In this document: positions 18,715 to 38,000 of the stretch, in pieces
How the letters are laid out: every line of letters starts with the position of its first letter
Position numbering within the stretch: position 1 is the first letter of the stretch
Assembly: GCF_900102145.1 (NCBI RefSeq)
Contig: NZ_FNBC01000010.1
Coordinates: 1-63,911, forward strand
Length of the DNA stretch: 63,911 nt
Direction: 5' to 3'
From: Thermus arciformis
GTDB taxonomy: Bacteria > Deinococcota > Deinococci > Deinococcales > Thermaceae
Position numbers and translations under genes: made by a program
The notes under the pieces: model-generated
Seen by the model: only the letters and a program-made list of their open reading frames with translations
What the model was told of the DNA's origin: nothing
Database searches by the model: none

Positions 18715-18721
18715 GGGCCTG

Positions 18722-20480: not shown

Positions 20481-20484
20481 GGGG

Positions 20485-21327: not shown

Positions 21328-21563
21328 TCCCGGCCTCCAAGAAGCGCCGCCATGCGCTCGGCGAGCTCCTTCTCCCCGAAAGCCCCTTCCAGGAGCACCT
21401 CTTCCCCCCAAAGGAGCACCGGGACGCGGAAGGTGTACCGGGCGAAGAGCTCCGGATCGCGGTCCACGTCCCGGCGCACGTAGGGCACCCCCAGGGTCCA
21501 GAGGGCCCTTTCCGCCTTCTCGCAAAGCCCGCACCCTTCCCGGGTGACGAAGACGAGCTCCAT
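21324..21563 (-). CDS. Glutaredoxin-like protein
   Basis: A 79-residue thioredoxin-fold protein. [16 protein letters not shown] has the CxxC redox pair near the N-terminus and [16 protein letters not shown] the cis-proline loop. It would handle disulfide exchange in the cytoplasm. The ATG giving [12 protein letters not shown] is preferred; a longer start adds 16 residues without family support. It is coupled to lgt by a four-base overlap. Confidence 0.87.
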
Positions 21564-21583
21564 GGGGGAAAGCATACCCTGGC

Positions 21584-22063: not shown

Positions 22064-22141
22064 GGGAAAAGCCTAGGGCCTAGGCCCATGAGAAGGGAAA
22101 GGGACATCTGCCTTGGGCGGCTTCCCGTAAGCTTGGGGCGT

Positions 22142-23203
22142 ATGGACATCGGCCTACCTAAGGAGCGCATGACCCTCAAAAACCTCCCCCTCTTCGCGGG
22201 GGAGGTGCGGGAGGGGCGGGTGGCCCTCACCCCCCAAGGGGTGCGGGAGCTTGTGGCGTTGGGCCACCGGGTCTACGTGGAGCGGGGGGCGGGGGAGCGG
22301 GCGGGCTTCCCCGACGAGGCCTACGAGGCGGCGGGGGCCAGGCTGGTGAGCCGGGAGGAGGCCTTTGGCCGCCCCGAGGTGGTGCTCAAGGTGGCCCGCC
22401 CCACCCTCGAGGAGGTGGCCCTCCTCCGCCCCGGGGCCACCCTTTTCGGCTTCCTGCACCTGGCCGTGGCGGAGTCCTCCCTGGTGGAGGCCATGGCCCA
22501 GAAGGGCCTCACCGCCATCGGCTACGAGCTCGTGGGGGAAGGGGAGAGGCGGCCTGTGCTCAAGGCCATGAGCGAGATCGCTGGGCGGCTCGCCCCCCAG
22601 CTCGCCGGGCGGCTCCTCGAGGCCCCCTTGGGCCCCGGGGTGCTCCTCTCGGGCCTGCCCGGCATCCCCCCGGCGGACGTGGTGGTCCTGGGGGCGGGGG
22701 TCTTGGGCCGGGCGGCGGGGAAGGCCTTCCTGGGGGCCGGGGCCTCGGTCTACCTCCTGGACCACGCCCTTCCCGCCCTGGAGGAGGCGGCCCGGGAGGC
22801 CCCGGGGGCCGTCACCGCCCTCGTCACCCAAAGCCGCTTGGAGCGCTACGTGGCCTTCGCCGACGTCCTGGTGGGGGCGGTGGCCGTCCCCGGGGAGCGC
22901 ACCCCCCTTCTCCTCACCCGGGACCTCCTCGCCCGCATGCGCCCGGGAAGCGTCCTCCTGGACTTCGCCATAGACCAGGGGGGCATCGCCGAGACCAGCC
23001 GGGTGGGGGTCTACCAGGAGATGGGGGTCACCCACTTCTGCCTCCCCAACGTCCCCGCCCTCGTCCCCCGCACCGCAAGCCACGCCCTCACCGCCACCCT
23101 CTTGCCCTTCCTGCTGCGGATGGCGGAAGACCCCCTGGCGGTGCCCGAGCTCCGCCAGGGGGCCTACCTCCTCCTGGGCCAGAAAGGAGGCCACCTAGAA
23201 TGA
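22142..23203 (+). CDS. Alanine dehydrogenase (AlaDH/PntA family)
   Basis: A 353-residue NAD-dependent oxidoreductase of the alanine dehydrogenase/transhydrogenase-alpha family. GRVALTPQGVREL holds the substrate arginine, EVVLKVARPT the lysine, LFGFLHLAVAES the histidine, VVLGAGVLGRAAG the nucleotide-binding glycines and LLDFAIDQGG the aspartate; with all four catalytic residues present, alanine oxidation to pyruvate is more likely than a transhydrogenase subunit. The N-terminus carries a small insertion (MTLKNLPLFAGEVR). The ATG at 22142 has no ribosome-binding site but TAAGCT ends eight bases upstream. Its stop overlaps the CoA-transferase start. Confidence 0.85.
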   Translation: MDIGLPKERMTLKNLPLFAGEVREGRVALTPQGVRELVALGHRVYVERGAGERAGFPDEAYEAAGARLVSREEAFGRPEVVLKVARPTLEEVALLRPGATLFGFLHLAVAESSLVEAMAQKGLTAIGYELVGEGERRPVLKAMSEIAGRLAPQLAGRLLEAPLGPGVLLSGLPGIPPADVVVLGAGVLGRAAGKAFLGAGASVYLLDHALPALEEAAREAPGAVTALVTQSRLERYVAFADVLVGAVAVPGERTPLLLTRDLLARMRPGSVLLDFAIDQGGIAETSRVGVYQEMGVTHFCLPNVPALVPRTASHALTATLLPFLLRMAEDPLAVPELRQGAYLLLGQKGGHLE

Positions 23204-24513
23204 GCTACCGCAAGAAGCTCACCTCCCCCGAGGACGCCGTGGGCCTGATCCGGTCCGGGATGCGGGTCTTCGTCTCCGGCAACGCCGCCACCCCCACCCC
23301 CCTCCTCAAGGCCCTCGCCGCCCGCAAGGACGAGCTGGAAAACGTGGAGCTCGTCCACCTCCTGCAGATGGGGGAAGACCCCTTCGCCTCTTTGGAGATG
23401 GAGGGGCACTTCAGAAGGCGCTCCCTCTTCGTGGGCCCCGCCGACCGGGAGGCGGTGAACCAGGGCCGGGCCGACTACGTGCCCATCATGCTCCACCAGG
23501 TGCCCTGGCTCTTCAAGCGGCGCATCCTCCCCCTGGACGCGGCCATCGTCCAGGTGTCCCCTCCGGACGAGCACGGCTTCTGCTCCTTGGGGGTGGAGGT
23601 CATCGCCACGAAGGCGGCGGTGGAGACCGCCCCCATCGTTATCGCCATGGTAAACCCCAGGATGCCGAGAACCCTGGGGGACACCTTCGTCCACGTCTCC
23701 CGCCTCACGGCCATCGTGGAGCTGGACTGGCCCCTGCCGGAGCTCAAGCGGGAGGGGTTTGGCGAGGTGGAGCGGAGGATCGGGGAGCACGTGGCGGGCC
23801 TCATTGAGGACGGGGCCACCCTGCAGATGGGCATCGGGGCCATCCCCGACGCGGTCTTGGCGAGCCTGGAGGGCCGCAAGGACCTCGGGGTGCACACGGA
23901 GATGATCTCCGACGGGGTCCTCGAGGCCTGGGAAAAGGGCCTCATCACCGGGGCGAAAAAGTCCCTCCACCCCGGGAAGATCGTGGGCACCTTCGTCCTG
24001 GGTTCGGAGCGGCTCTACCGCTTCGTCCACGACAACCCCCTCTTTGAGCTCCACCCCGCCGACTACGTGAACGACCCCTTCGTCATCGCCCAAAACCGCA
24101 AGATGGTGGCCATCAACTCGGCCATTGAGGTGGACCTCACGGGCCAGGTGGTGGCGGACTCCATCGGCACCCGCATCTACTCGGGCTTCGGCGGCCAGCT
24201 GGACTTCATCCGGGGGGCGGCAAGGAGCGAGGGAGGAAAGCCCATCATCGCCCTGCCCTCCACGGCCAAGGGGCATAGCCGCATCGTCCCCTACCTCAAG
24301 CCGGGGGCGGGGGTGGTCACCACCCGGGCGGACGTGCACTACGTGGTCACGGAGTGGGGCGTGGCTGAGCTCTTCGGCCGCTCCTTGAGGGAGCGGGCCT
24401 TGGCCCTCATCGGGGTGGCCCACCCCGACTTCCGGGAAGAGCTTCTAAAGGCCGCCTGGGAGCGGAGGCTTCTCCCCCGGAGCTACCCTGGGGTGGGCCT
24501 CCAGGGGGGCTAA
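23200..24513 (+). CDS. Acetyl-CoA hydrolase/transferase family protein
   Basis: A 437-residue enzyme of the acetyl-CoA hydrolase / 4-hydroxybutyrate CoA-transferase family. LGVHTEMISDGVLE contains the active-site glutamate that forms the acyl anhydride with CoA, and GTRIYSGFGGQLDFIRGAAR and HYVVTEWGVAELFG are the family signatures. It may hydrolyse acyl-CoA or swap CoA between acids. It starts inside the alanine dehydrogenase stop (ATGA), so alanine-derived carbon and acyl-CoA balance may be linked, as an inference. The stop codon opens a hairpin repeat that fills the gap to the convergent surface-protein gene. Confidence 0.9.
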   Translation: MSYRKKLTSPEDAVGLIRSGMRVFVSGNAATPTPLLKALAARKDELENVELVHLLQMGEDPFASLEMEGHFRRRSLFVGPADREAVNQGRADYVPIMLHQVPWLFKRRILPLDAAIVQVSPPDEHGFCSLGVEVIATKAAVETAPIVIAMVNPRMPRTLGDTFVHVSRLTAIVELDWPLPELKREGFGEVERRIGEHVAGLIEDGATLQMGIGAIPDAVLASLEGRKDLGVHTEMISDGVLEAWEKGLITGAKKSLHPGKIVGTFVLGSERLYRFVHDNPLFELHPADYVNDPFVIAQNRKMVAINSAIEVDLTGQVVADSIGTRIYSGFGGQLDFIRGAARSEGGKPIIALPSTAKGHSRIVPYLKPGAGVVTTRADVHYVVTEWGVAELFGRSLRERALALIGVAHPDFREELLKAAWERRLLPRSYPGVGLQGG

Positions 24514-24557
24514 CACCACCCCATGCTGGCTTGCGCCAGCATGGGGGCCCCAAAAGG
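24511..24557 (+). repeat. Stop-codon hairpin repeat between convergent genes
   Basis: The stop TAA is followed by CACCA and a 12-bp hairpin, CCCCATGCTGGC (24519-24530) with 24535-24546, then GGCCCCAAAAGG. This is the same layout as the copies at 11555 and 41918. It fills the 46-base convergent gap almost exactly and may act as a terminator for both sides, although there is no U-run on the plus strand. Confidence 0.8.
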
Positions 24558-24559
24558 CC

Positions 24560-27547
24560 TTAGCGGATCTGGACCCGGTAGCAGACCTCCCCCGCCTCCC
24601 CCGGGCCCACGTTGCCCACCTCCACCCGCACCACCCCGCCCGAGATCTCCCCGGCGTCGTCCGCTGGGGAGGCGGTGAGGTAGAGGGTGGCGCTTCCGTG
24701 GCTCCAGCGGATGGCCTTCCCCCCGTAGTCGGGCACGGAGGGGAGGGGGTCCGTGAAGAAGGGAATGGGGTCGGTGAGGAGGAACTGGCTCACGGGGGCC
24801 GTGCCCAGGTTGCGGTAGGTCACGCAGTACTCCAGCACCTCCCCCGGCCTCCCCTCCCCCCGGGTGCCGAAGCCCGTGCCCTGGGTGACGTTCCGCACCT
24901 TTTTCTCCAGGCGGACCTCGCCCCCCGAGACCGTGGTGGTGTCGGCGAGGCTCCGGAGGTCCACCACCCCGGGGTTGTTGGCCCAGGCGAGGGCGCCTTG
25001 GAGGAGGGCCACGTCCACGGCCCCCGCGGGCACCCCCGGGGGCACCAGGACCCGGGCCTCCAGGGCGCAGGCCTTCAGACTCCCGTCGGCTTCCCGGGGC
25101 CAGGAGGGGCCCACGGGGAGGGTCTGGGGCAGGGAAGCGAAGCCCTCCCCGGGGTCGTCAAAGTCCCCGTCGCAGTTCCCGTCCACCCGGACCTGGACCG
25201 GCCAGGAGGGGGCGTTGGCCAGGGAGAGGGTGAGGCTTCCCAGGGTGCCCGGGCGGTAGAGGTGGGGGTAGGCCACCACCCCGGGGCTTGCCGCCAGGCC
25301 TGTTTGCGGCGGATAAAAGCGGCTTTCCCGCACCACGCCGAAGTTGCGGGCCACCTCGGTTCCGGCGATGGCCGCCGCGTCCAGGGTGGGGAAGGCGGGG
25401 TTTTGCGCCCCGGCCCAGCTGGGGACCTTGTGGGCCGTGCTCCCGTCGTTCCAGCCCGTGGCCGGGCGCAAGGGGTGGGAGAGGGTGAAGGGGCCGAAGT
25501 TCCAGGGGACGTAGAGGACGTAACGGCCCTGGCCGTCGGTGGTGGCCGAGCGGGCGGCGCTTCCCTGGGCGGTGACCGCCACGCCGGGGACGCCCCTTTC
25601 CCCGCCCGTCTGCCAGGCGTCGTTGGCGGCCCCGCCCCCTTCCCCGTCGTCGTAGAAGACGGTGCCCACGAGCCTCGCCCCGTGGAAGAGGCCGAAGTCC
25701 AGGCCGGAGAGGTCCTGGAACACGCTCACGCTGAGGCTACCCGAGGGGGGGTTGACGAAGAGCCAGCCCGAAGGGGGGGTGGGGGTGGTGTCGGAGGGGT
25801 TATTGTTGTCGTCCAGGAAGAGGGTGTAGCTCCCCGGGGCCACGCCCGTGAAGCTGAAGGCGCCGCTTCCCGGGTCCACCTGGGCCTGGGCCACCACGCT
25901 TCCCCCTTGGAGGAGCTTCACCCAGACCGTGGCCCCGTCGCTCCAGCTCTCCCCGGGGGACTTGAGGCCGTTGGGCTCGAGGTCGTGGTAGACCTGGCCC
26001 GCCAGAGTGAAGCCCACCACCGTGACCGAAGCGCTCACGGTGGCTTCCTTGCTGTAGCTGGTCCCCAGGGTCTGGGCGTTGTAGCTCACCCTGGCGGTGT
26101 TGACGAGGGTGCTGCCCGCGGCCTCGGGGAGGACCTGCACCCGGAAGCGCACCTCCGCCCCTTGCCCGGGGGGGATGAGGCCCCCTTGGCTGGCGTTCGC
26201 CCCGGTGCCGAGCCGGAAGCGCACGCAAGGCCCTCCCCCGGCCTCGGGGCAGCTTGGGCTGTACTCGGCGATGTCGTCACCGGGGGCGTCCGTGAAGGTG
26301 CCGGTGGGCGCCCCCAGAGCGTTTTGCACCACCCGGAGGCTTCCCGGGACGTACTGGGTGCCCGCCGGGATGGGGTCCACCACCACCACGTTGGTGGCCC
26401 CGTCCAGGCCGGTGTTGGTGAAGCTCACGGCGTACTCCAAGAGGTCCCCCACCCGGAGGTCCCCGCCGTTGAGGTCGGAGACGGTCTTGGTGAAGGTGGT
26501 GACGAGGTCGGGGAGGTAAAGGTCCACGGCGAAGGCCATGACCGCGGGGAAGTACACGTCTCCCGAAGAAGAAAACTGGACCGTGGCGGAGGTGGCCCCG
26601 TTGGGGATTTTCCCGGTGGCGTCCACCAGGTCCACGTCCACAGCCATATGGTTCACGAAGTCCGGGGTCTTGTTGGTGAAACGACTTCCCAGGTCAGAGA
26701 TGGAACTATTGAAAAAGTTGTTCACCGGGTTCTGCGCGTCGCTCAAGGCGGAGCTGTTGAGGAGGAGCTGGTCCCCGGTGATGCCCCCCTCTCCCTCGTA
26801 GGCCAAAGCCCCCACCCGGGCGTTCACGGGGCCCACCAAGGGGGTGAGGAAGCCCGAGAGGGTGATGAGCACGTTGTTACCGCTACTAACACTCGCTAGG
26901 CCGTCGTAGACCACCAGATTCTTGAAGGTGGCGCTGGGGTCGCGGTAGACCACCACCAGGCTCCAGCCCGCGTAAAAGCCAATATTAGTATCTGTTCCCG
27001 TCTGCGCCACGATGCCGCCCACCCAGTAAGAGCCACTCCCCGCCGAGCGCACCAGGCCCGTGACGTCGGCGAAGGCCACGTAGGGGCTGGGGGTGGCACC
27101 TGTTATGGTGCCGAGAAGGGAGCCCGTGACGGCCTGGTAGGCCGTGGCCCCCGGGGGCTTGAGGTAGATGGTGTTCCGCCCGGAAGCGCTCTGGCCAGCC
27201 CTAGCTCCCCAGTAGAGGCCCGCCCACAGGACCTGGGCGCCGGGAGGAAGGCTGAGCTGGGCGGCGCTGGAGCCTCCCCTTCCCGCAGGCCAGGTGGGGT
27301 TGGCGGGGTCGGCGTTCAGGAAGATCATATTGAGTGTGTTGTTGAGCGCATTCGGGTTATTCATCGCCGTGGTGTTGCAACCGTACGTTCCTGAGCCCTG
27401 GGCGCACATCAGGGTGTTGCCCACCATGCGGATCTCGCCCCGCTCGTTGGCCTCAAAGCGCTTCGCGAAGGGCCTGACCACCTGAGCCTGGGCGAGGCCC
27501 GGGAGGAGGACCAGGAGGACCAAGATGGCTCTCATCCAGAACTTCAT
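24560..27547 (-). CDS. Large exported DUF11 / SdrB-like surface protein (995 aa)
   Basis: Signal peptide within 1-22 (AILVLLVLLPGLAQAQ). Residues about 25-345 form a beta-rich head with AQVLWAGLYWGARAG and several Asn/Ser-rich loops. Residues about 350-510 are a DUF11 module (GDLLEYAVSFTNTGLDGATN, DPIPAGTQYVPGS). Two SdrB/SpaA-like modules follow (AGQVYHDLEPNGLKSPGES and VGTVFYDDGEGGG), and a further DUF11-like module closes the protein (GEVLEYCVTYRNLGTAP). A calcium-type loop DGNCDGDFDDPGE is present. No LPXTG or transmembrane anchor is seen. Its ATG overlaps the stop of the barrel gene upstream (ATGA). Likely a cell-surface or secreted stalk protein; the exact role is unknown. Confidence 0.85.
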   Translation of the reverse strand: MKFWMRAILVLLVLLPGLAQAQVVRPFAKRFEANERGEIRMVGNTLMCAQGSGTYGCNTTAMNNPNALNNTLNMIFLNADPANPTWPAGRGGSSAAQLSLPPGAQVLWAGLYWGARAGQSASGRNTIYLKPPGATAYQAVTGSLLGTITGATPSPYVAFADVTGLVRSAGSGSYWVGGIVAQTGTDTNIGFYAGWSLVVVYRDPSATFKNLVVYDGLASVSSGNNVLITLSGFLTPLVGPVNARVGALAYEGEGGITGDQLLLNSSALSDAQNPVNNFFNSSISDLGSRFTNKTPDFVNHMAVDVDLVDATGKIPNGATSATVQFSSSGDVYFPAVMAFAVDLYLPDLVTTFTKTVSDLNGGDLRVGDLLEYAVSFTNTGLDGATNVVVVDPIPAGTQYVPGSLRVVQNALGAPTGTFTDAPGDDIAEYSPSCPEAGGGPCVRFRLGTGANASQGGLIPPGQGAEVRFRVQVLPEAAGSTLVNTARVSYNAQTLGTSYSKEATVSASVTVVGFTLAGQVYHDLEPNGLKSPGESWSDGATVWVKLLQGGSVVAQAQVDPGSGAFSFTGVAPGSYTLFLDDNNNPSDTTPTPPSGWLFVNPPSGSLSVSVFQDLSGLDFGLFHGARLVGTVFYDDGEGGGAANDAWQTGGERGVPGVAVTAQGSAARSATTDGQGRYVLYVPWNFGPFTLSHPLRPATGWNDGSTAHKVPSWAGAQNPAFPTLDAAAIAGTEVARNFGVVRESRFYPPQTGLAASPGVVAYPHLYRPGTLGSLTLSLANAPSWPVQVRVDGNCDGDFDDPGEGFASLPQTLPVGPSWPREADGSLKACALEARVLVPPGVPAGAVDVALLQGALAWANNPGVVDLRSLADTTTVSGGEVRLEKKVRNVTQGTGFGTRGEGRPGEVLEYCVTYRNLGTAPVSQFLLTDPIPFFTDPLPSVPDYGGKAIRWSHGSATLYLTASPADDAGEISGGVVRVEVGNVGPGEAGEVCYRVQIR

Positions 27548-30500
27548 CGGCTCCCTCCGAAGACGTCCAGCCTCAGGTAGACCCCCTCGGGGGCGAAGAG
27601 GCTGGGCCCAAACTGGTAGCCCAAGGAGAGCCAGAGGGGGCTAAAGCGCAGGGTGCCCTCCACGGAGAAGCTTAGGCTCCCCGCCCCGGTGGCGGGCTGG
27701 AAGGTGTAGGCGGCCCCGCCCCCGAGGCCCAGAAGCTCCGTGGGGAAGAGGGTGGCGTAAAGCCCGAGGGCGTAGGTGGCCCCCTCTGGGTCAGGGAAGG
27801 GGTAGCGGTAGCCGAAGGCCGGGCGCACGGAGAAGGCGGGGGAAGGGGCGTAGGCGGCGGCAAGCTGCCCCTCCAGAAGGCCCGTCTCCGTGGCGTAGCG
27901 GTGGTAGGTGAGGAGGGAGAGGACCGGGGAGCGGAGGGCGTAGGCCAGGCTGAAGCGCCCCTTCACCTCGGGGAGGAGGGAGAGGGCGAGGTCCAGGCCC
28001 AGGGTGTTCTCGGGGTCCAGGCTCCCCGCCGCCCCGCCCCGGAGGGTGAGCTTGGGGCCGAGGGCCCCTTCCACCCCGAAGGTGGCCACCAGGCCCTCCC
28101 GGGCGTAGCGGAGGCCGAGGCTTCCCCCAAGCTCCCCCTGCCCCCCGGAGAAGGCGTAGAGGGCGTAAAGGCCCAGGTTCGCCGAGAGGTTTTCCGTGAG
28201 GGGAAGGGGGGCCTCCAGGCCGAAGCGGGCGCGGTTCCCCTCCCCGCTCGCCGTGGGGAGCTGGTAGGAGAGGGCCAGGTTGGCGCTCCCCAGGCGCTGG
28301 CGCAGGCCAAAGGCCCCCTGCAGGCCCTCCCCCCAGAGGTAGGCCAGGCTTCCCTCCGCCTCCAGGGCTTCCCCTAAGGGCCAGAGGAGGTCCAGGCGGG
28401 TCTCCTGCCCGCCGGACAGGAGGTAGGCGTGGGAGAGGCCGAAGCGGGCCCGGCCCTCCTGGTAGGCGGCCCGGCCCAGGAGGTAAAGGCTTCCCTCCCG
28501 CCAGGCGTAGCCCGCCCCCAGGCCGAAGCGGAGGCCCTGGGCGAGCTTCGCCTCGTAGACGAGCCCGGTGCGGGCGGGGGTGGTGTGCTCCAGGGCCACC
28601 GCCCCGAAGCCCAGGTCGTAGGCCGCCCGGAAGGCCCCCTGCACCTCCCCGCCCTCCTCGTAGGCCAGGTTGCCCTGGGCCTCGAGGGGCCCCTCTCTCA
28701 GGGCGGCGGAGAGGCCGAAGCGCCACTTCCCCGCGAAGGCGGCCTCGAGGCCCACCCCGCTTCCCCCTTCCCCGTAGGCCAAGGAGGCCCCCAGGGCGTA
28801 GCCCTGGGAGGCGAAGCCCTGGAGGTCCAGGCGCAGGTACCCCCCAAGCCCGAAGCGCCAGGGGCCCGCCTCGTAGGCCGCCTGGGCCCCCAGGGCGAGC
28901 TCCTCCCGGGGGGCGGAGAGGGGGGCGTACTCCGCCACGAGGCGCACCGGGGCGAACCCGGGGGTGAAGGGGGCGAGGGGCCTTGCCAGGACGATCTCCC
29001 CGCTCAGGAACTCGTAGGTGTAGTCCACCCCGGCCTCCAGGGCCCTGGTCCTTCCCCCCTCCACCAGGAAGAGGCGGAGGGAGCCCGGGGCGGGGCTTCC
29101 GGAGAGCCGGTAGAAGGCGGTGCCGTCGGGGACGATCTCCTCCCGCACCTGGCCTTTGGGGAGGAGGGCCAGGAAGGCCTCCACCCTGGCGTCGCCCCGG
29201 GTGGTGAGGCGGAGGGCGGTGGCCTCCCCAAGGCCCGGGGCCAGGGGGCCCCGCTCGTAGGCGAGGGTGTACTCCGGGGTGGTGTAGCGCAAGGCCACGG
29301 GGTCGTCCGAGGCCAGGGGGCGCCTGGCCTCCTCCCCCGAGCCGGTGACGGGGAAGAAGCCCGCCTCGGGGGCCCGGGAAAGCCCCCCCGTGGTGTCCAG
29401 GGCCCCCTGGAGGAAGCCCCCTTCCAGGGGGGTTTCCACGTAGCCCCGGGCGAGGCCGAAGAAGCGGGGCCGCCCCTCCTTGGGGTCGTAGGCCACGCCC
29501 ACGCTCCCCTGGGCGAGCCAAAGGGCCTCCTGGGAGCCCCCGGCGAAGAGGCGGAAGGACCTCTCCAGCTCGTTGAAGCGGGCCCGGAGGCGCACCTCCT
29601 GGGGGGTGAGGAGGGGCTTAAGCATCACCGTCCCCACCCCGTCCCGCAGGAGCACCTGGTAGCCGGGCTCCAGGGGGCTCGCGTCCGGGGCCACGGGCTC
29701 GGGGGTGGCCTCGAGGGTGGCGAAGCCAAAGCCCGTGGGGAGGCCCATCCCGTCCACCGCCTTCAGGCGGAACTCCAGGGGGGTGCGCCCGTCCGCCCTG
29801 AGGCGCACGGGCTCCAGGACGAGGTCCTTTGGGGGCCCGGGCCGGAAGACCTCCACCTTGTCGTAGAAGCCTGGGCCTTCCACCTCCACCACGTTCCTGC
29901 CGGGGAGGAGGGGCACCCCGTAGTAGGCCAGGCGCTGCACCTTGCGCCCCTCGTCGTACTGGGCCTCCCCGAGGAGGCGGCTTTCCACCTCAACGCCGTT
30001 CACCCGCACGGCGATGGGCCCAAGGGGAGCCTCAATCTTCAAGGCCACGGCTTCCTGCTGCACGATGGCCCCGTCCATGGGCTCCTGGATGAGCCCCCTG
30101 CGCTTGGCGGAGAGGGGCTTGGCCCGCTCGTAGTCCCTTAGGCGAAGCTCCCCTTTTAGAGGAAGCTCCCGGTCCAGGCGGAGGAGGGTGAGGGCGGGCT
30201 CGGGGAGGGGCGGCAGGGCCCGGGTGTGGAGGAGGGTGAGGGTCAGGAGGCCTTCCCGGGCGAAGGGGAGGCGCCAGACCAGGGTGCCGTCCGGGAGGAC
30301 CCTCGGCTCCTCCACGGGCCTCCCGTCCAGCCGGGCGGAGCCTGGGCTGTACTCCGCCCCTTCCGGCGGCCTGAAGCCCAGGAGGAGGGCGTCCCCTTCC
30401 CCCTCCACCCGGAAGGGCAGGCGCACCACCGAGACCCGCTCGGGGGCGAGGAGGGGAAGGACGGCCACCTTGGCCTTGACGGGGAAGGCGGCGGGGGTCT

Positions 30501-31941
30501 CCCCGAGGAAGGCGGAAAGCCCGTTTTCCAGCTCGCCCACGGCCTCGGCCCGGAAGGGAAGGGCGAAGGTCCTCTCCTCCCCCGCCTCCAGGGCCACCCG
30601 CTCGCTCCAGGGGTCCATGCCGAGGCCCTGGCCCGGGATGTCCTTGAGCTCCACCTCCACCCGGTGGTCCGCGGGGTTCTTCACCCGGAGGCGGAAGCCC
30701 CCCTGGCTTCCCTCCAGGAGGCGCGGGGGGTCGGCCTCCTTCCCCAGGAGGAGAAGCCGCCTCTCCAGGGCCACCTCCGCCCGCAGGGTCTCCGTGGGGG
30801 TGCGCAGGGTGGCGGCGCAGGTGCCCTCCGCCTCGGGCCCCAGGAGGACCCGGGCCCGGTAGGTGTGGAGGGCCCCTTCCCCGGGCTTGAGGTAGCCCTC
30901 AAAGCGGGCGGGCCCCAGGGGGCTCAGCCAGTCGGGGCAGGCGTCCTCCAGGACGTAGCGCATGGGGGCCTCGCCCCGGTTCTCCACCCGGAGGGCGAGG
31001 GCCACCTCCTCCCCGGGCAGGTAAATCCGGTGGGGGAGGCTCCGCTCCAGGTGGGCCTTGGGCCTGAGGACCCGCACCTCCGCCTCGGCCTTTTCCCCGG
31101 TGGAAAGCTCGGCCCGGTTCACCAGGGTCCCTTGGGCCTCGAGGGGCACGGGGAAGGCGAACTCGTAGCTCCGCCCCTCCTTGGCCTTCAGGAAGACCTC
31201 CCGCCGCTCCTCCCCTCCCAGGAAGCGGTCCAGGAGGAGGGCCCTCCCCTCCTCGTCCCCCTCGTTCACCACGGTGACGCGGAAGCGGGCCACTCCCCCC
31301 GCCTCCACCTCGGGGGTGAGGGCCTCCTTGGTGAGGCGGAAGGTGGCGGGGCGGACCACCACCACCCTTCCCTCCGCCCTAAGCTCCCAGGGGGCGAGGA
31401 GGCCTTGGAGGGCGTAGGTCCCCTCCTTCTCCGCCAGGAAGCGCACCTTGAGGGGGAAGGGGCGGTCCTTGGTGAGGGGCCCTTGGGCCCTGGGGGCGCC
31501 CAGGGGGGCGAGCCCTTCCGGCAGGGCCAAGGAGAGCTCGGCGGGGAGGAGGCCCGGGTAAGGGGTGGTGGCGGTGAGGACCACCTCCCCCTCCTCGCCC
31601 ACCCGCAGGTAGACCTCCTCGGGGGCGAGGCTCAGGGCCACCTCCGGCAGGAGGCGCACCAGGACCTCCTGCCGCTTTCCGGGGAGGACCTCCACCTCCT
31701 TGGGGGCCTCCACCCGGGCCCCTTCGGCGAGCACGGCCAGGGGGTAGCGGCCCTGGGGCAGGGCCAGGGTCTTTTCCCCGTCCACGGGGGCCTCGAGGTC
31801 CCCAAGGCGGAGGATCACCCGGGTAGGGGCTTCCCCACCTGGAAAGACCACCACCGCCCGGATGTGCACCTCCCCCGTAGGACCTCCGGTTTGGGCCAGG
31901 GCGGAAAACAAGAGGAGGAAAAGGGCCAAAATGCGCTTCAT
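27544..31941 (-). CDS. Giant exported protein with C-terminal outer-membrane-barrel-like region (1465 aa)
   Basis: Signal peptide MKRILALFLLLFSALAQ. The first 600 residues read as repeated Ig-like modules (LSLAPEEVYLRVGEEGEVVL, PATFRLTKEALTPEVEAGG). Residues about 640-900 contain VRVNGVEVESRL, RPLASDDPVALRYTTPEY and, later, YEFLSGEIVLARPL, a phrase common to large outer-membrane assembly or adhesin proteins. The last 470 or so residues alternate aromatic/hydrophobic with small polar residues and glycine turns (WRFGLGGYLRLDL, GLRFGLGAGYAW), the pattern of a many-stranded beta-barrel, ending LRLDVFGGSR. It overlaps both neighbours by four bases. It may anchor or export the DUF11 proteins. Confidence 0.82.
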   Translation of the reverse strand: MKRILALFLLLFSALAQTGGPTGEVHIRAVVVFPGGEAPTRVILRLGDLEAPVDGEKTLALPQGRYPLAVLAEGARVEAPKEVEVLPGKRQEVLVRLLPEVALSLAPEEVYLRVGEEGEVVLTATTPYPGLLPAELSLALPEGLAPLGAPRAQGPLTKDRPFPLKVRFLAEKEGTYALQGLLAPWELRAEGRVVVVRPATFRLTKEALTPEVEAGGVARFRVTVVNEGDEEGRALLLDRFLGGEERREVFLKAKEGRSYEFAFPVPLEAQGTLVNRAELSTGEKAEAEVRVLRPKAHLERSLPHRIYLPGEEVALALRVENRGEAPMRYVLEDACPDWLSPLGPARFEGYLKPGEGALHTYRARVLLGPEAEGTCAATLRTPTETLRAEVALERRLLLLGKEADPPRLLEGSQGGFRLRVKNPADHRVEVELKDIPGQGLGMDPWSERVALEAGEERTFALPFRAEAVGELENGLSAFLGETPAAFPVKAKVAVLPLLAPERVSVVRLPFRVEGEGDALLLGFRPPEGAEYSPGSARLDGRPVEEPRVLPDGTLVWRLPFAREGLLTLTLLHTRALPPLPEPALTLLRLDRELPLKGELRLRDYERAKPLSAKRRGLIQEPMDGAIVQQEAVALKIEAPLGPIAVRVNGVEVESRLLGEAQYDEGRKVQRLAYYGVPLLPGRNVVEVEGPGFYDKVEVFRPGPPKDLVLEPVRLRADGRTPLEFRLKAVDGMGLPTGFGFATLEATPEPVAPDASPLEPGYQVLLRDGVGTVMLKPLLTPQEVRLRARFNELERSFRLFAGGSQEALWLAQGSVGVAYDPKEGRPRFFGLARGYVETPLEGGFLQGALDTTGGLSRAPEAGFFPVTGSGEEARRPLASDDPVALRYTTPEYTLAYERGPLAPGLGEATALRLTTRGDARVEAFLALLPKGQVREEIVPDGTAFYRLSGSPAPGSLRLFLVEGGRTRALEAGVDYTYEFLSGEIVLARPLAPFTPGFAPVRLVAEYAPLSAPREELALGAQAAYEAGPWRFGLGGYLRLDLQGFASQGYALGASLAYGEGGSGVGLEAAFAGKWRFGLSAALREGPLEAQGNLAYEEGGEVQGAFRAAYDLGFGAVALEHTTPARTGLVYEAKLAQGLRFGLGAGYAWREGSLYLLGRAAYQEGRARFGLSHAYLLSGGQETRLDLLWPLGEALEAEGSLAYLWGEGLQGAFGLRQRLGSANLALSYQLPTASGEGNRARFGLEAPLPLTENLSANLGLYALYAFSGGQGELGGSLGLRYAREGLVATFGVEGALGPKLTLRGGAAGSLDPENTLGLDLALSLLPEVKGRFSLAYALRSPVLSLLTYHRYATETGLLEGQLAAAYAPSPAFSVRPAFGYRYPFPDPEGATYALGLYATLFPTELLGLGGGAAYTFQPATGAGSLSFSVEGTLRFSPLWLSLGYQFGPSLFAPEGVYLRLDVFGGSR

Positions 31942-34640
31942 GGGTACCTCCAGCGCACCTCGGGGTCGGACATGAAGGGCCTGTCCAGGGTGTACTCGTA
32001 AAGCAGAACCTCCTCCCCGCCGAACCGGGCGAAGTGGAAGGTCTTCTCCGTGCCGTCGGGCAGAGGGTCGCGCACGGTGAGCTCCTCCAGGGGCTCCTGG
32101 GAGCGGAGGAGGAGGACCACCCGGAAGCCCCCTTCCACGGGAAGGAGGCGCTTTTCCAGGGTGAGGGGTCCGAAGCGCAGGGTGGTCTCCCGGTAGGCCT
32201 CCACGAACCCCTTGGGGGCCTTCAGGGGGAAGTCCGAGACGCTAAGCCCCTGCACCCGCACCCCGTGGCGGTACCCCTCCCCCAGGGCCTCGGGGTGGGG
32301 GAGGGGCGGGAAGGGGGCGGAGGCGGGGTCCAGCATCACCTGCCATATCCCGGGGTCCAGGTCCCGGAAGGCGTAGCGGCCCTCCCGGTCCGTGAGGGCC
32401 TGCCAGCCGTTGGCCAGGACCACCCGGGCCCCGAGCACGGGGATATCGGTTCCGGGCTCGTAGCGCCCGTTCTCGTTCACGTCCAGGTAGACCCGGCCCA
32501 GCAACACCCCCCGCTCCAGGCCCAGGGTTTCAAGCCGCGCCCGCACCTGGGCCCGGGCCTGGACCTGGGCGGTGGCCGCCCCTTGGGCGCTCAGGCCCTG
32601 GGCCTCGGCCACGTTGAGCAAGGTGGCCGGGGCCCCGGGGAGGACCCGCATGCGGTACTCCAGGCAGAAGCTCTCCTTGGGGCCCAGGGTGAGGGTCCAG
32701 CGCAGGGAGGACCCTTCCCTCTCGGGCTCCAGGGGGCCCAGGCTTCCCCCGCACCGCCCTCCCCGGGCGCTTCCCTCCAGGTAGGCCAGGTGGGGGTCGG
32801 GGGTGTCCTTTAGGCGCACCTCCAGGGGGGCGGAGGCGGGGTTGGTGACCCTTAGGGTGTAGGTGAGGACGTCCCCCGGGGCGGCCTCCTCGGGGCGCAC
32901 CCGCTTTTCCAGGGCCAGGTTCACGGAGAGCACGGGGTGGGTCACCTCGTTGGACACCAGGGGGTTAGGGGTGGCCTCGGAGGTGAGGGTGAAGCGGTTC
33001 TGGAGGAGGGTGTCGTCCGGGGTGTCCGCCTTCACCCGCACCCGCACCCACAGGCGGGTCTCCCCCAGGGGCAGGGGGTCCAGGAGGAAGACCACGGCGT
33101 GGCGTTCCGGGTCGTAGCTTCCCCCGCTGGCCTCGAGGAACTCCACCCAGGAAGGCAAGCGGTCCTCCACCCGGGCCTTAAGAGGGGCGAAGCGGTTTTC
33201 CACCACCAGGGTGTAGGTGAGGGTGTCCCCCGCCTTCAGGGTGGTCCCCGGGGCGGGGTCCGCCTCTTTGCGGAGGGAAAGGGCGCCTTGGGGAAGGACC
33301 TCCAGGCGGTCTCTGGTGCGGTTCTCCCCGCCCCCCGCCAGGGAGACCGCCACCAGGGTGGCCTCGAGGACCCCCGCCTCCCTGGGGTCAAAGCAGGCCA
33401 GGAAGTCCAGGCTCTCCCCCGGGCCCAGGGGGATGGGCTCGGGGAGGGGTGTCCCCTGGAGGCTGAGGAGGCGCACCGGGGCGCCCTCCACCCGGATGCG
33501 GTAGCCGTCCTGGGCGGTGCCCTCGTTGAGGAGGGTGTGGCGGAAGCAGTAGGGCTGGCCCGCAAGCCCCCGGGCCTCCTGCAGGTCGTCCCCGCTCCCC
33601 TCCCCGCCTGGCAGGGCCTTGGGGTTTCCCCCGGGGCCCAGGTGGTGGAGGTAGAGGGGAAGCACCTCCACCACCGCCACCCCTTCCGCCGGCCCCCCAG
33701 GGCCTTCCGCCAGGGCCCGGTTCTCCCGGGGCCCCGGGGAGGCGGTGGGAAGGGCCTCCACCCCGAAGGAGAGGGTGGCCTCCTCCCCGGGGAGGAGCCT
33801 CTCCAGCCGGAGCCGGACCCCGAGGGGGGAAGGGGGCTCCTCGGGGCGCCAGGCCGCGCCGTCAAAGAACTCCAGAGTCCCCTTGGGGGCCCGGGCGCTT
33901 CCCGGCACGTAGCGGAAGCCCTCCAGCCCCGCGAAGAGGTCGGTGAGGAGGATGGGCCCCCCGGCCTCCCCGCTTCCCAAGTTCCTCAGGGTGAGGGTGA
34001 AGGTGGCCCGCTCCCCGGGGAGGAGGGCGGCGGGGCTTACGGCCTTGGTGAGGGAAAGGCTGGGCTCCAGGATGGGGGAGGCCTCCACCCGGGCATAGTT
34101 CTCCCCATCGCGTTCCCCCCCGGGGCAGGTGGCCACGGGGCTGATGAAGAGGCTTCCCGAGGCGGTGGCGGGCACCTTCAGGGCCAGGACCAGGGCCACC
34201 TCCTCTCCCATATCCAGGGCCACCTCGGCCACCTCGGGCTCCCCGGGGTCGGGGAGGGCGTTGCCGTTTAGGTCCAGGTGGAAGCGCACCCCCTCAGGGT
34301 TCCAGGAGGAGGTCCGGTGGACGGCGTGGTCCAGGGCGAAGGTGTAGGGGGCGTTTCCCCCGTTCTTAAGGCGGTAGGGGAGGTAGACCCAGCCCCCCGG
34401 GGCGGCGCTCGCCCTCAGGCCCGGGGCCTCCGGGGTCCCGTCGGGAGAGAGGAGAGGGCGGCAGACCGCCTGAACCCGGGTTTCCGCCACGTTGGAGAGG
34501 TAGCGCTCCCCCGAGGCCTCCGCCACCGCCTGGTTGCGGATCACCGTGCCCGCGGGGGTGAGGGCGAGGGCGAAGGAAAGGAGGAGGGAAAGGGCGAAGG
34601 TCCTTCCCCAGATGCCTCTCCTTTCCCCTTGCGTCCTCAT
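31938..34640 (-). CDS. Exported DUF11 repeat surface protein (900 aa)
   Basis: Signal peptide about 12-26 (TFALSLLLSFALA). The mature start LTPAGTVIRNQAVAEA is clearly paralogous to MTPAGTAIQNQASASY in the 888-aa protein next door. DUF11 modules recur with phrases such as PGERATFTLTLRNLGSGEA, AGDTLTYTLVVENRF and PGDVLTYTLRVTNPASAPLE. Near residues 740-800 GRVYLDVNENGRYEPGTD is an SdrB-like collagen-binding-B fold, followed by FRDLDPGIWQVML. Strongly charged compared with its Thr/Ser-rich paralogue. GGAGAGGAAGG precedes the ATG. The motif GGTTTTCACAGG lies 28 bases upstream. Probable surface filament or matrix protein. Confidence 0.83.
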   Translation of the reverse strand: MRTQGERRGIWGRTFALSLLLSFALALTPAGTVIRNQAVAEASGERYLSNVAETRVQAVCRPLLSPDGTPEAPGLRASAAPGGWVYLPYRLKNGGNAPYTFALDHAVHRTSSWNPEGVRFHLDLNGNALPDPGEPEVAEVALDMGEEVALVLALKVPATASGSLFISPVATCPGGERDGENYARVEASPILEPSLSLTKAVSPAALLPGERATFTLTLRNLGSGEAGGPILLTDLFAGLEGFRYVPGSARAPKGTLEFFDGAAWRPEEPPSPLGVRLRLERLLPGEEATLSFGVEALPTASPGPRENRALAEGPGGPAEGVAVVEVLPLYLHHLGPGGNPKALPGGEGSGDDLQEARGLAGQPYCFRHTLLNEGTAQDGYRIRVEGAPVRLLSLQGTPLPEPIPLGPGESLDFLACFDPREAGVLEATLVAVSLAGGGENRTRDRLEVLPQGALSLRKEADPAPGTTLKAGDTLTYTLVVENRFAPLKARVEDRLPSWVEFLEASGGSYDPERHAVVFLLDPLPLGETRLWVRVRVKADTPDDTLLQNRFTLTSEATPNPLVSNEVTHPVLSVNLALEKRVRPEEAAPGDVLTYTLRVTNPASAPLEVRLKDTPDPHLAYLEGSARGGRCGGSLGPLEPEREGSSLRWTLTLGPKESFCLEYRMRVLPGAPATLLNVAEAQGLSAQGAATAQVQARAQVRARLETLGLERGVLLGRVYLDVNENGRYEPGTDIPVLGARVVLANGWQALTDREGRYAFRDLDPGIWQVMLDPASAPFPPLPHPEALGEGYRHGVRVQGLSVSDFPLKAPKGFVEAYRETTLRFGPLTLEKRLLPVEGGFRVVLLLRSQEPLEELTVRDPLPDGTEKTFHFARFGGEEVLLYEYTLDRPFMSDPEVRWRYP

Positions 34641-34667
34641 CCTTCCTCTCCTCCATCCTTCGCCTTC

Positions 34668-34679
34668 CCTGTGAAAACC
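34668..34679 (-). promoter_or_regulatory. Shared 12-bp motif GGTTTTCACAGG upstream of the 900-aa DUF11 gene
   Basis: The identical 12 bases occur at 37989-38000 ahead of the first gene of the same locus, and close variants lie at 41889 (upstream of VanW) and 49054. The position, about 30 bases before the start, suits a regulator site or upstream promoter element; no clear -10 box is seen here. Confidence 0.35.
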
Positions 34680-34739
34680 TCGTCAAAAAGCGCCTCTAAA
34701 AAGCCCTTCTTCCTTTTTTGCCTTCCCCCCTAGGGGGGC

Positions 34740-34765
34740 CCGCCCCGGGGAAGCCCCCGGGGCGG
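34740..34765 (-). terminator. Strong inverted repeat after the 888-aa DUF11 gene
   Basis: CCGCCCCGGGG (34740-34750) pairs with 34755-34765 over a four-base loop, and a second palindrome CCCCCCTAGGGGGG adjoins it at 34726-34739. On the minus-strand transcript it is followed by an A-rich rather than U-rich run, so it is either an atypical terminator or a processing and stability hairpin separating two parts of the locus. Confidence 0.5.
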
Positions 34766-34775
34766 GGCTTGGGGC

Positions 34776-37442
34776 CTACTGCACCTGCACCCGGAGGGTG
34801 ATGGTGATCCTGGCGGCCGGGGGCATGAGGTCGGCGTCGGTGATGTTGCCGTCCCCGTTCGTGTCCACGCCCACGTAGACCGAGCCGCCCGTGGGCACGG
34901 AGGTGGGGGCGCTCGTGCTCCAGGTGACGCCGTCCGTGGAGTAGAGGACGGTGTAGGTGCCGCTGAAGCCCGTGGCCGTGGCGGAGACACTCACGAAGGT
35001 GGTGTAGGCGGGGATGGGGTCGGCGACGATCACCTTCTTGAGGTCCCCGGTGCCGATGTTCTCGGCGACGATGGTGTAGGTGAGGGTCTCCCCGGGGTAG
35101 GCCGTGAGCTTGTCCACGGACTTCTGGAGCCTGAGCTCCCCGCCCACGATGGTGGTGGTCTCCGTGGCGGCGTCCGTGGCCTCGTAGTCGTTGTCGGGGC
35201 TCCCCGTGGTCACGTCGCACCGGGCGGTCACCGTGTTCACGTCCACCCGCCCCACGGGCTCCCCGGCGGGCACCAGGACGCGGACGTAGATGGTCTGGGT
35301 GCCGCCGTTGGGGACCGCGTAAACGTCGGCCAGGGCGCTGTACCAGCTGGTGCCGTCCGTGGAGTACTGGTAGGTCCAGCCGTGGCTCCCGCCGTCCCCG
35401 GAGATGTCGCAGTAGGCCGGGGCGTTGGAGTTGTTGATGAGGGTGTGGGTGTAGGTGAGGGTGCCCGGGCTCGTCACGGTGCCGGAGCGGTCGGGGTCCA
35501 GCTGGACCTGGGCCAGGAGGTTCACGTTGACCGTGGAGCTGATGGTGTCGGAGACCGTGCCCACCGTGGTGCTGGTGGCGGTGAAGGACACGGGGTTAGC
35601 CCCGGGAGCAGTCCCGCTAGGCACGCTCACCGCCGCCACGAAGCAACGCTTCTGGTTGGGGTTGATCACGCCCGTGTTGGTCACGGGAGCGCTGTCGGGC
35701 GTGCCGTCGCAGTCCGTGTCCGGGTAGAAGACCGCGCTCCAGCCCGTGGGCACGCTGGCGGTGAGGGTGTAGTTGTCGGCGTTGTTCCCGGCGTTGTAGA
35801 CCTCAACGGGGAAGTAGACCGTCTGGCCGGGGTTGGCGCTCTGGGCAGGCGGGTTATCGTTGGTGGGGTCGCCGTCCCCAGCGAAGCCCCGTTGCGCCAG
35901 GTCCACTGCGTACCCCAGGAGCACCTGGCTCACCGTGTCCGTGGTGGTGTCCTGCTTACTCGGGTCGTTCGCGCTGGTGGCGGTGACGGTGAGGTTCACG
36001 GCCGAAGAGGTGGTGTAGTTCGCCGGGATGGCGCACTTCAGGGCGAAGTCGTAGGTGCCGCCCGCGGGGATGGGGCCCACGGGGCCGGAGATGGGGGTGG
36101 TGAGGTCGTCCGCCACCAGCTGGCAGGCCCAGCCCGAAGGCGCCCCGGAGAAGCTCAGGGTGAAGCTGTCCGCGGCGTTCCCGGTGTTCTTCAGGGTGTG
36201 GCGGAAGACCACCGTGGTGCCGGAGTAGGCGCTGGAGATGGTCTGGGTGTCGCCGCTGCGGGCCACGGTGTAGCCGCCCACGCTGTAGGAGCCGGAAGCC
36301 CCTGCCTCAGGGTACCCGTAGGGCCCCACGGCCACGTTGTAGCTCGCCCCCACGGTGTTGGTGGTGGTGTTGGTGGAGACGGTCTCGCCGGGGTCGTTGG
36401 CGTCCCCGTCGCCGTTGGCGTCAAACTGGACGGTGGCGGAGTTGGCGTAGCTCGTCCCGGCGCTGGCCGTGGAGGGCACCGTGGCGGTGAAGCTGAAGGT
36501 GTACTGGGCCCCCACGGGGAAGAAGGCCCCCGTGCCCTCAATGAGCATGCCGATCTTCACCGTGCCGTTTCCGGTCAGGGGGAGGGCCGAAGCGGTGAGG
36601 GTCTGCCAGCCCGCGCCGCTGTTGTAAATGATCTTCACCGTGCCCGCGCCCGCCGAGCCCGTGGGCATGGTGTTCACGGTGAGGCCCGTGGGGATGGTGT
36701 CGGCGATGAGGATGCCCGTCCTGGGCGTGCTGTCCACCGTCACCGGGATGCCGTAGGCCGCGCTTCCGCCCACGTTCTGGCCGCTGATGGTGTAGGTGAT
36801 GGTGCCTCCGGGGCTTGCGCTGCCCGCGGGGCTTGCCGCCTTGCTGGCGGTGAGGGCGGCGGCGGTGGTGGTCACGGCCCGGGCCCAGTTGTCGTTGTCG
36901 GTGATGGGGCTAGGGGCGGCGTTGGTGCCCGCGAGGTTCAGGTTCCCGTACTGCCCGCTCGTGGCGCTTGTGGGAATCGTGGCCACCACCAGGACGCAGG
37001 CGCTTTGGCCCATGCCCAGGGTGAGGCCCGTGATGGGCGTGTTCTCCCCGGCGTCCAGGGTGCCGTTGCAGTTGGTGTCCCGGTAGATGGTGGGGCTTAA
37101 AAGGTCAAAGTTGTCCGCGGTGCCCTGGACGGTGGAGAGGTTGATGGTGTCGGTGCCGTTGCCGTTGTTGGTCACCACGTAGTTGAAGACCACCTGCCCC
37201 CCGGGAAGGGCGTTTTTGGTCTGGCCCGGGGAAGCCTCGGTGCCGTCTGGCGTGATGGTGAAGGCGTAGACCTGCTGGACGAGGGTGGTCACCAGGTTGG
37301 ACGTGGTGGTGCGGGGCTGGTTCGCCGAGTCAATGTAGCTCGCCGAGGCCTGGTTTTGGATGGCCGTGCCCGCCGGGGTCATGGCGTAGGCCAGCCCCAG
37401 AACCAGGGCTACCAGAAGACCGATAAGACCTGCTCTTTGCAT
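34776..37442 (-). CDS. Exported Thr/Ser-rich DUF11 surface protein with calcium-type loops (888 aa)
   Basis: Signal peptide 1-20 (LIGLLVALVLGLAYA). The mature protein is unusually rich in Thr, Ser, Gly, Asn and Ala and poor in charge, unlike nearly everything else in the window. DUF11 modules are visible at the start (SPGGTITYTISGQNVGGSA) and the end (PGETLTYTIVAENIGTGDL). At least four Asp-rich loops look calcium-binding: DTNCNGTLDAGEN, DANGDGDANDPGE, DTDCDGTPDSA and DTNGDGNITDAD. GGAGGT stands seven bases before the ATG. It lies 14 bases after the 165-aa gene. Composition suits an extended, possibly glycosylated, surface fibre. Confidence 0.85.
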   Translation of the reverse strand: MQRAGLIGLLVALVLGLAYAMTPAGTAIQNQASASYIDSANQPRTTTSNLVTTLVQQVYAFTITPDGTEASPGQTKNALPGGQVVFNYVVTNNGNGTDTINLSTVQGTADNFDLLSPTIYRDTNCNGTLDAGENTPITGLTLGMGQSACVLVVATIPTSATSGQYGNLNLAGTNAAPSPITDNDNWARAVTTTAAALTASKAASPAGSASPGGTITYTISGQNVGGSAAYGIPVTVDSTPRTGILIADTIPTGLTVNTMPTGSAGAGTVKIIYNSGAGWQTLTASALPLTGNGTVKIGMLIEGTGAFFPVGAQYTFSFTATVPSTASAGTSYANSATVQFDANGDGDANDPGETVSTNTTTNTVGASYNVAVGPYGYPEAGASGSYSVGGYTVARSGDTQTISSAYSGTTVVFRHTLKNTGNAADSFTLSFSGAPSGWACQLVADDLTTPISGPVGPIPAGGTYDFALKCAIPANYTTSSAVNLTVTATSANDPSKQDTTTDTVSQVLLGYAVDLAQRGFAGDGDPTNDNPPAQSANPGQTVYFPVEVYNAGNNADNYTLTASVPTGWSAVFYPDTDCDGTPDSAPVTNTGVINPNQKRCFVAAVSVPSGTAPGANPVSFTATSTTVGTVSDTISSTVNVNLLAQVQLDPDRSGTVTSPGTLTYTHTLINNSNAPAYCDISGDGGSHGWTYQYSTDGTSWYSALADVYAVPNGGTQTIYVRVLVPAGEPVGRVDVNTVTARCDVTTGSPDNDYEATDAATETTTIVGGELRLQKSVDKLTAYPGETLTYTIVAENIGTGDLKKVIVADPIPAYTTFVSVSATATGFSGTYTVLYSTDGVTWSTSAPTSVPTGGSVYVGVDTNGDGNITDADLMPPAARITITLRVQVQ

Positions 37443-37456
37443 GCTCTAACCTCCTC

Positions 37457-37954
37457 TTACCTCACGATGGTCCTGAGGCTCACCATAACCTTGATCCCCT
37501 TGGGAAGAAGGGGGATGACCCAGCGCGCGTGGGTGTACTCCTCGGGCTTGACCTCAACCTCCTTCTCCACCTCCTTTCCGTTTTCCACCACCCGGATCCG
37601 CTTCTTGAGGGGGGGCTTGCCGAAGGTCTTCCCCCCGTCAAAGCTGAACTCGGGCGGCACGGCCGTCCCTCCCACCTGCAGGGGCTTGGCGCTCCCCTCC
37701 AGGTAGTAGGTCTCCTTGGGGATGGGGATGACGAGGCCCACCTGGCGGAGGTCGCCCTGGGCGCGGTTTTCCGCCACCAGGCGCCACTCCAGCACGTCCC
37801 CAGGCTTCACCGCCAGGGGGTTCTCCTCGTAGACCTCCTTGCCCTCCGCCACCTTGACCAAGTAGGCCCTCAGGTCCAGGGTGAGGGCCTGGGCCAGGGC
37901 CAAGGAAGCCAGGAGGGCGAGACCGAGGATGCGGATGAAGGCGTTTGCTCTCAT
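37457..37954 (-). CDS. Exported single DUF11-like domain protein (165 aa)
   Basis: Signal peptide LGLALLASLALAQA, then one DUF11-like domain: VKPGDVLEWRLVAENRAQGD, PEFSFDGGKTFGKPP and HARWVIPLLPKGIKV. It is the minimal version of the module repeated in the large proteins downstream and the first gene of the cluster, so it may be a subunit or cap of the same structure. The ATG at 37954 directly follows AGGAG without spacing, while TACAAT at 37970-37965 lies ten bases upstream, so initiation may be leaderless or nearly so. The much longer upstream-open frame is antisense to topA and is discarded. Confidence 0.82.
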   Translation of the reverse strand: MRANAFIRILGLALLASLALAQALTLDLRAYLVKVAEGKEVYEENPLAVKPGDVLEWRLVAENRAQGDLRQVGLVIPIPKETYYLEGSAKPLQVGGTAVPPEFSFDGGKTFGKPPLKKRIRVVENGKEVEKEVEVKPEEYTHARWVIPLLPKGIKVMVSLRTIVR

Positions 37955-37988
37955 CTCCTGGGGGATTGTATTTGGGGCCTGTGAAAGG

Positions 37989-38000
37989 CCTGTGAAAACC
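37989..38000 (-). promoter_or_regulatory. Shared 12-bp motif GGTTTTCACAGG upstream of the DUF11 locus
   Basis: The motif is preceded on its left by a near-copy (TTTCACAGGCC at 37978-37986), giving a short direct repeat in the 105-base divergent region between the DUF11 locus and topA. The same 12 bases recur at 34668. A -10-like TACAAT follows at 37970-37965. Confidence 0.4.

Follow-up and report, generated by a model that had tools for sequence, protein, structure and literature searches.

SpyTag/SpyCatcher, an engineered split isopeptide domain taken from CnaB, closes spontaneously between two chains. The DUF11 domain, renamed CLIPPER, has a crystal structure (PDB 9IFR) with an intramolecular Lys715–Asn806 isopeptide bond for which Asp748 is the catalyst (PMC12617251), and DUF11 domains form the beads-on-a-string surface filaments of the grappling-hook proteins GhpA of Aureispira and GhlA of Litorilinea (PMC13319060). 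Here we describe a locus of Thermus arciformis in which DUF11 domains occur together with a predicted outer-membrane barrel protein, namely five consecutive genes at positions 24560–37954 on the minus strand of contig NZ_FNBC01000010.1 (the window, 63,911 nucleotides in full length). We consider it likely, with a probability of about 0.7, that the products of this operon are DUF11 (CLIPPER) proteins which form a chain anchored in the outer membrane. Assembly would proceed by a natural form of split-domain complementation, in which a truncated C-terminal domain (tail) receives its final strands from an N-terminal hairpin (head) of another subunit. All coordinates below are those of the window and all features lie on its minus strand, unless another genome is named.

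Division of the terminal DUF11 domains

The genes are numbered in transcription order (165, 888, 900, 1465 and 995 amino acids) and all five proteins start with a signal-peptide-like sequence. An earlier note on this DNA had listed five exported proteins of these lengths and in this order, with four-base overlaps between the last three genes, all of which is borne out: genes 3 and 4 share exactly four bases at 31938–31941, and genes 4 and 5 at 27544–27547, while genes 1 and 2 are 14 bases apart and genes 2 and 3 are 135 bases apart. The mature start TPAGT-x-I-x-NQA that the note ascribed to the 888- and 900-residue proteins is indeed present in both, right behind the signal peptide. In Pfam and NCBIfam, DUF11 is found above cut-off in genes 2, 3 and 5, SdrD_B in gene 5 and, below threshold, in gene 3, and a weak DUF3344 match in gene 5. 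Gene 1 reaches DUF11 below threshold in these databases, and its orthologs match a purpose-built DUF11 model with E-values of about 1e-7 to 1e-13.

The mature N-termini of the gene 2 and gene 3 proteins (TPAGTxIxNQAxAxY) are similar to the final strands of a DUF11 domain, and the gene 1, 2 and 5 proteins end just where those strands would come next. We built a hidden Markov model (HMM) of 131 positions solely on internal DUF11 domains from this protein set that are intact (114 in number), with the terminal parts excluded. In 85 orthologs, nearly all tails of genes 1, 2 and 5 reach position 93 or 94 of this model and no further, the exceptions being mostly fragments or short local alignments, and the gene 1 protein itself ends at position 93. 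All 46 heads imply a start at position 96: in 45 of them the third residue matches position 98, and in the other the match sets in one residue further on with the register unchanged; when the heads were shuffled, 31 of 2000 reached at least 2 bits in the position-96 register. The Pfam DUF11 model covers positions 2–67 with the gene 2 tail alone and 2–98 when the gene 2 head is added to it, whereas a control with the gene 5 N-terminus leaves the coverage unchanged. The accompanying gain in score is small (42.2 to 44.0 bits), and we take the register to be the stronger evidence for a split.

Judged by this register, the terminal DUF11 domains are divided between proteins: genes 1, 2 and 5 lack the Asn-bearing hairpin, and the heads of genes 2 and 3 would supply it, while the internal DUF11 domains of the same proteins are whole. 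Gene 1 (P0005, 165 residues, 37457..37954) consists of a signal peptide and one truncated DUF11 domain, and therefore has a tail only. Gene 2 (P0004, 888 residues, 34776..37442) has both ends, with a head at residues 22–60 (TPAGTAIQNQASASY..., 37263..37379) that forms a putative donor hairpin with Asn30, several DUF11-like domains, and a truncated DUF11 tail at residues 767–888 (34779..35144) with Lys774 and Asp808. Gene 3 (P0003, 900 residues, 31938..34640) has only a head, at residues 28–66 (TPAGTVIRNQA..., 34443..34559), whose putative donor hairpin carries Asn36, and continues with DUF11 domains and SdrD_B to a conserved C-terminal end TDPxVRWRYP. Gene 5 (P0001, 995 residues, 24560..27547) has a DUF3344-like N-terminal domain, DUF11 and SdrD_B domains, no head, and a truncated DUF11 tail at residues 861–995 (24563..24967) with Lys882 and Asp926.

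Docking of head on tail is supported by structure prediction. In one relative (L044) genes 2 and 3 lie in frame one codon apart, so that read-through of the natural DNA gives the tail, a linker made of the signal peptide, and the head in a single chain. AlphaFold2, given 43 sequences, docks the head on the tail in this chain, with a predicted local distance difference test (pLDDT) of 98 for the tail, 55 for the linker and 97 for the head core, and a predicted template modelling score (pTM) of 0.85. The docked model aligns with 9IFR in Foldseek at a template modelling (TM) score of 0.71 over 189 alignment columns, a match that must span the linker. It also resembles the isopeptide pilins BcpA, RrgB and SpaD, and Foldseek ranks first for the docked tail–head domain an uncharacterised protein of T. 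thermophilus, TTHA1873 (PDB 7WRK/7WWO), with which gene 1 has no sequence match despite the structural likeness.

Two observations stand apart from the split. A GC-rich hairpin of 12 pairs lies between genes 2 and 3 (34690–34780) and might reduce the expression of genes 3–5 relative to genes 1–2; we do not claim it as a terminator, as its folding is no better than that of shuffled sequences (z −0.69). Only one further DUF11 protein was found in the same genome (L118, contig C9, 5–3361); it is predicted to be a lipoprotein, has about 1118 residues, and was ruled out as a partner since its DUF11 domains are complete and it has neither a head nor a truncated tail.

The isopeptide triad at the proposed joint

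The profile of the internal domains matches 9IFR with an E-value of 1.4e-10 and with the Lys, Asp and Asn of the bond in register, and these residues are nearly invariant in the intact internal domains (Lys 112/114, Asp 112/114, Asn 114/114). As the split falls between Asp and Asn, the tails hold Lys and Asp and the heads hold Asn. Lys is found in 27 of 27 and Asp in 26 of 27 gene 5 tails, the gene 2 tails have Lys in 26 of 30 and Asp in 28 of 30, and all 46 heads have the Asn. In contrast, none of the 28 gene 1 orthologs has either Lys or Asp, the Asp position being taken by Ile, Leu or Val. That two families of tails keep Lys and Asp almost without exception, and the heads their Asn, while gene 1 has lost Lys and Asp altogether, suggests selection for the chemistry. 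Since Lys and Asp would come from the tail and Asn from the head, the bond would link two subunits, and we infer that a covalent inter-subunit isopeptide bond probably seals the head–tail domain. For gene 1 the residue pattern suggests a non-covalent chaperone or cap.

The same split chain could also be completed non-covalently, as in the donor-strand exchange of pili, with the Lys/Asp/Asn triad as a relic. Neither the split position nor the docking needs a bond, and gene 1 and the cyanobacterial tails discussed below have lost triad residues yet retain the split fold. Against this stands the pattern just described, near-invariant across five family-level groups of Deinococcota in two tail families and in every head, with Lys and Asp lost in gene 1, and on this evidence we consider a purely non-covalent chain unlikely, although it is, together with a periplasmic connector considered below, one of the two main rivals to the covalently sealed chain.

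The covalently sealed chain extends the picture drawn by the earlier note in two respects: a joining mechanism through split DUF11 domains, and in the 165-residue protein a loss of Lys and Asp that would define its role. The assignment of the DUF11 proteins to a fibre and of the 165-residue protein to a cap or adaptor, made in that note, fits the evidence, with the fibre itself as the putative element.

The predicted barrel protein and the possible location of the chain

Gene 4 (P0002, 1465 residues, 27544..31941) has an Ig-like N-terminal part and no Pfam or NCBIfam match of its own. When residues 600–1465 were predicted with 31 relatives (pLDDT 84, pTM 0.69), the part from residue 998 to the end (about 467 residues; 27547..28950) was all beta, with about 32 strands, and up to seven more strands precede it; the C-terminus, GxYLRLDxF, is beta-signal-like. 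The top PDB matches are LptD, FimD, SlpA and TonB-dependent barrels with TM scores of 0.1–0.2, low values that are expected if the strand number of gene 4 is much larger, and several gene 4 relatives match porin or outer-membrane protein barrel families in Pfam. The strands are strongly amphipathic, yet no more so than the Ig strands, so that amphipathicity is not by itself proof of a membrane barrel. The reading of this C-terminus as a barrel thus holds as far as the number of amphipathic strands and the kind of structural match go, whereas closure is not visible in the model, and we describe the region as a predicted outer-membrane barrel.

Relatives in which genes 3 and 4 are fused indicate how the barrel may be used. 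In D. gobiensis the two genes are merged into a single protein whose N-terminus carries the head. In the alphaproteobacterium Pacificitalea the fused protein (2032 residues) starts with TPAGTVIRN and has an outer-membrane-barrel-like C-terminus, and it is found with a gene-1-like protein devoid of Lys and Asp and a gene-2-like protein with head and tail. Acinetobacter haemolyticus has the fusion together with an OmpA-family gene, a gene-5-like protein, and a gene-2-like part in pieces. The rule of Lys and Asp in tails and Asn in heads is mostly valid in the loci with these fusions, and the smallest recurring unit is the pair of genes 3 and 4. Because genes 3 and 4 are fused in these three organisms, gene 3 is predicted to be a base subunit placed beside the barrel, and because the barrel is thereby joined to a head-bearing base, gene 4 would be an anchor. 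Of the two roles suggested earlier for the barrel, exporter or anchor, the second therefore fits the fusions, and an export function of gene 4 is putative.

In the mechanism we propose, the subunits would reach the periplasm via Sec, and the gene 4 barrel and gene 3 base would expose a free N-terminal hairpin. The C-terminus of gene 2 is a DUF11 domain without exactly that hairpin, so that head and tail would together form one complete domain. Gene 2 could then serve as a repeatable shaft subunit, its own head taking the next tail, either from another gene 2 protein or from gene 5, which, having a tail and no head, would terminate the chain as a tip or terminal adhesin. Completion of each domain would create a covalent bond between subunits with no need of a sortase, and gene 1, with a tail lacking Lys and Asp, may sit on heads in a reversible manner and so serve as chaperone or cap against premature polymerisation. 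Sequence shows the genes themselves, their joint inheritance, the point of the split, the pattern of residues and the fusions, while docking and the strand-rich barrel region are supported by prediction. The length of the polymer, the formation of a fibre, its location at the surface, its direction of growth and the choice between chaperone and cap for gene 1 are points that we infer from this arrangement.

A chain of the same subunits might instead connect the outer membrane to the cell wall. Both ends of ordinary barrels are periplasmic, which would make the heads periplasmic by default. The Acinetobacter cluster includes an OmpA-family gene, and Deinococcus SlpA is known to link outer membrane and wall (PMC9388160). 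On the other hand, the DUF11-chain relatives GhpA and GhlA are surface fibres, the architecture of gene 5 is adhesin-like, and a barrel of about 32 strands is much bigger than an anchor requires, which makes a periplasmic connector doubtful in our view. Less probable still is that gene 4 is a dedicated secretion pore for its four neighbours, which would be released and not anchored: the very large predicted strand number and the nearly constant overlap of gene 4 with the upstream gene would suit such a pore, but the fusions place the head-bearing base within the barrel chain, favouring anchoring, and neither SprA nor ushers were matched in searches by sequence or profile. Finally, the presence of head and tail in gene 2 would allow each head to close on its own tail, giving ring-like monomers and separate surface adhesins without a polymer, but gene 3 has only a head and genes 1 and 5 only a tail, and all are co-inherited, which requires some pairing between proteins and makes self-closure very improbable.

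Several points weigh against the anchored, covalently sealed chain that we favour. Orthologs share ancestry, so that the 46 heads and 85 tails are not independent trials and show conservation. The docking model was made from an artificial chain, an in-frame read-through whose linker is flexible, and the closure and topology of the gene 4 barrel are putative. In a cyanobacterial relative, Lys is missing from the gene-5-like tail and Asp from the gene-2-like tail, and the 165-residue-like protein retains Asp; with triad residues missing from these tails, covalent closure is not universal. In addition, GhpA is a single giant chain, so the joining of several subunits is not required for a DUF11 filament.

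Distribution and comparison with known systems

Co-occurrence of the five genes well beyond this genome, a check that the earlier note had proposed, is borne out among the 111 Deinococcota genomes analysed, in which relatives of gene 4 occur in 61 and those of genes 1, 2, 3 and 5 in 55 to 73. The order 1-2-3-4-5 is found in Thermus, Meiothermus, Calidithermus, Trueperaceae and other groups, covering five family-level groups, and four-base overlaps are typical for genes 3/4 and 4/5 across the Deinococcota loci. In one family the order is rotated, with gene 5 ahead of gene 1 (L063, L064), and no conserved neighbour gene beyond the five was found. Some genomes have a second, distant pair of genes 3 and 4 (L071–L077), with gene 3 of up to about 3500 and gene 4 of up to about 2900 residues. 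In some genomes the reading frame of gene 3 or gene 2 appears to be broken, by decay or assembly error (L048, 3648–6435; L049, 10608–13333; L053, 2873–6791).

The genes are also lost together. Of 27 Thermus genomes, the full set is present in 15 and wholly absent from 10, and remnants are left in two: in one (G060; L069, 3550–5060) gene 1 is intact, gene 2 gives way after a few codons to a foreign, insertion-element-like sequence, and genes 3–5 were not found, while the other (G045) keeps just the last 205 or so codons of gene 5. T. thermophilus HB8 has an intact operon on the megaplasmid pTT27, annotated as hypothetical and DUF11 proteins, whereas HB27 retains at the same plasmid locus a truncated gene 3 and gene 4, having lost genes 1, 2, 5 and most of 3. 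The HB8 genes (TTH_RS10905 to TTH_RS10925) are presumably about TTHB179–183, since TTHB178 is the adjacent exonuclease gene, and a literature search found no publications on them. The HB8 operon (L081, pTT27 12963–27319) is flanked by reverse gyrase and iron transport genes and by a type I-E CRISPR-cas locus.

A profile search of genome contigs with a subset of less divergent sequences gave 26 loci, all in Deinococcota. Distant versions are present on plasmids of Deinococcus, cyanobacteria, and alpha- and gammaproteobacteria, from which no plasmid preference can be concluded, because the relatives beyond Deinococcota were taken from a plasmid collection. In Synechococcus sp. NIES-970 the five genes are all present and unfused and the triad is looser, and the Asn is present in 11 of 11 distant heads. 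Taken across Deinococcota, Cyanobacteriota and Pseudomonadota, these loci may represent a widespread class of diderm surface fibres that combine spontaneous covalent polymerisation through split CLIPPER domains, control by a bond-dead 165-residue mimic in the role of chaperone or cap, and anchoring by an outer-membrane barrel that would rank among the largest made of a single chain, a combined proposal to which we give even odds. If true, it would provide a function for many genes annotated as 'DUF11 domain-containing' or 'hypothetical' on bacterial megaplasmids and account for how Thermus might make boiling-resistant surface structures. The thermostable head/tail pairs could then be used as protein-ligation tags, the very large single-chain barrel would become a target for structural work, and the proposal can be tested in T. 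thermophilus HB8, a standard laboratory strain which bears the intact operon.

Chaperone–usher pili, with incomplete Ig-like subunits that are completed by the N-terminal strand of a neighbour, an outer-membrane barrel, and one- and two-ended subunits, resemble the arrangement proposed here, in which complementation between subunits is predicted from sequence register and AlphaFold and the barrel is likewise a predicted one. Here, however, a CLIPPER domain would be completed, by a hairpin as donor, the predicted barrel is very large and C-terminal, and the joint is predicted to be sealed covalently. We reject membership in that group, since neither gene 4 nor its 31 relatives have an usher-family Pfam match, FimD being just a weak structural match (TM 0.15), and no PapD-like chaperone is found among the five genes in Pfam or NCBIfam, nor any conserved neighbour gene. 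Sortase-assembled Gram-positive pili also consist of isopeptide Ig-like pilins, the likeness seen in the docked model, but are polymerised by sortase via sorting signals, whereas the C-termini here end in ..RVQV(Q/R) or WRYP without such a signal, which excludes the locus from this class. With about 32 strands predicted for residues 998–1465, gene 4 is not an autotransporter, whose barrel has 12 strands. SpyTag/SpyCatcher is a laboratory construct based on CnaB, while the split domain described here is natural and CnaA-like. SprA, the translocon of the type IX secretion system, is a giant single-chain barrel (PMC10994853), as gene 4 is predicted to be, but neither Pfam nor sequence and profile searches of the PDB gave a SprA match for gene 4 and no cargo signals of that system were identified, so that membership is rejected as well.

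Literature searches, which covered few subscription papers, found no CLIPPER domain that is split over two proteins in nature, nor any natural case in which a split isopeptide domain links fibre subunits covalently without a sortase. GhpA and GhlA use one giant polypeptide per filament, and split joints or a barrel partner are not described for them (PMC13319060). The likeness to CLIPPER itself extends to the fold and to the order and spacing of Lys, Asp and Asn, and the intact internal copies of this locus are ordinary CLIPPER domains; however, the published domains are whole with an intramolecular bond (PMC12617251), whereas here one domain is spread over two proteins. We rate the operon as a new kind of assembly system, the parts of which come from known domain families.

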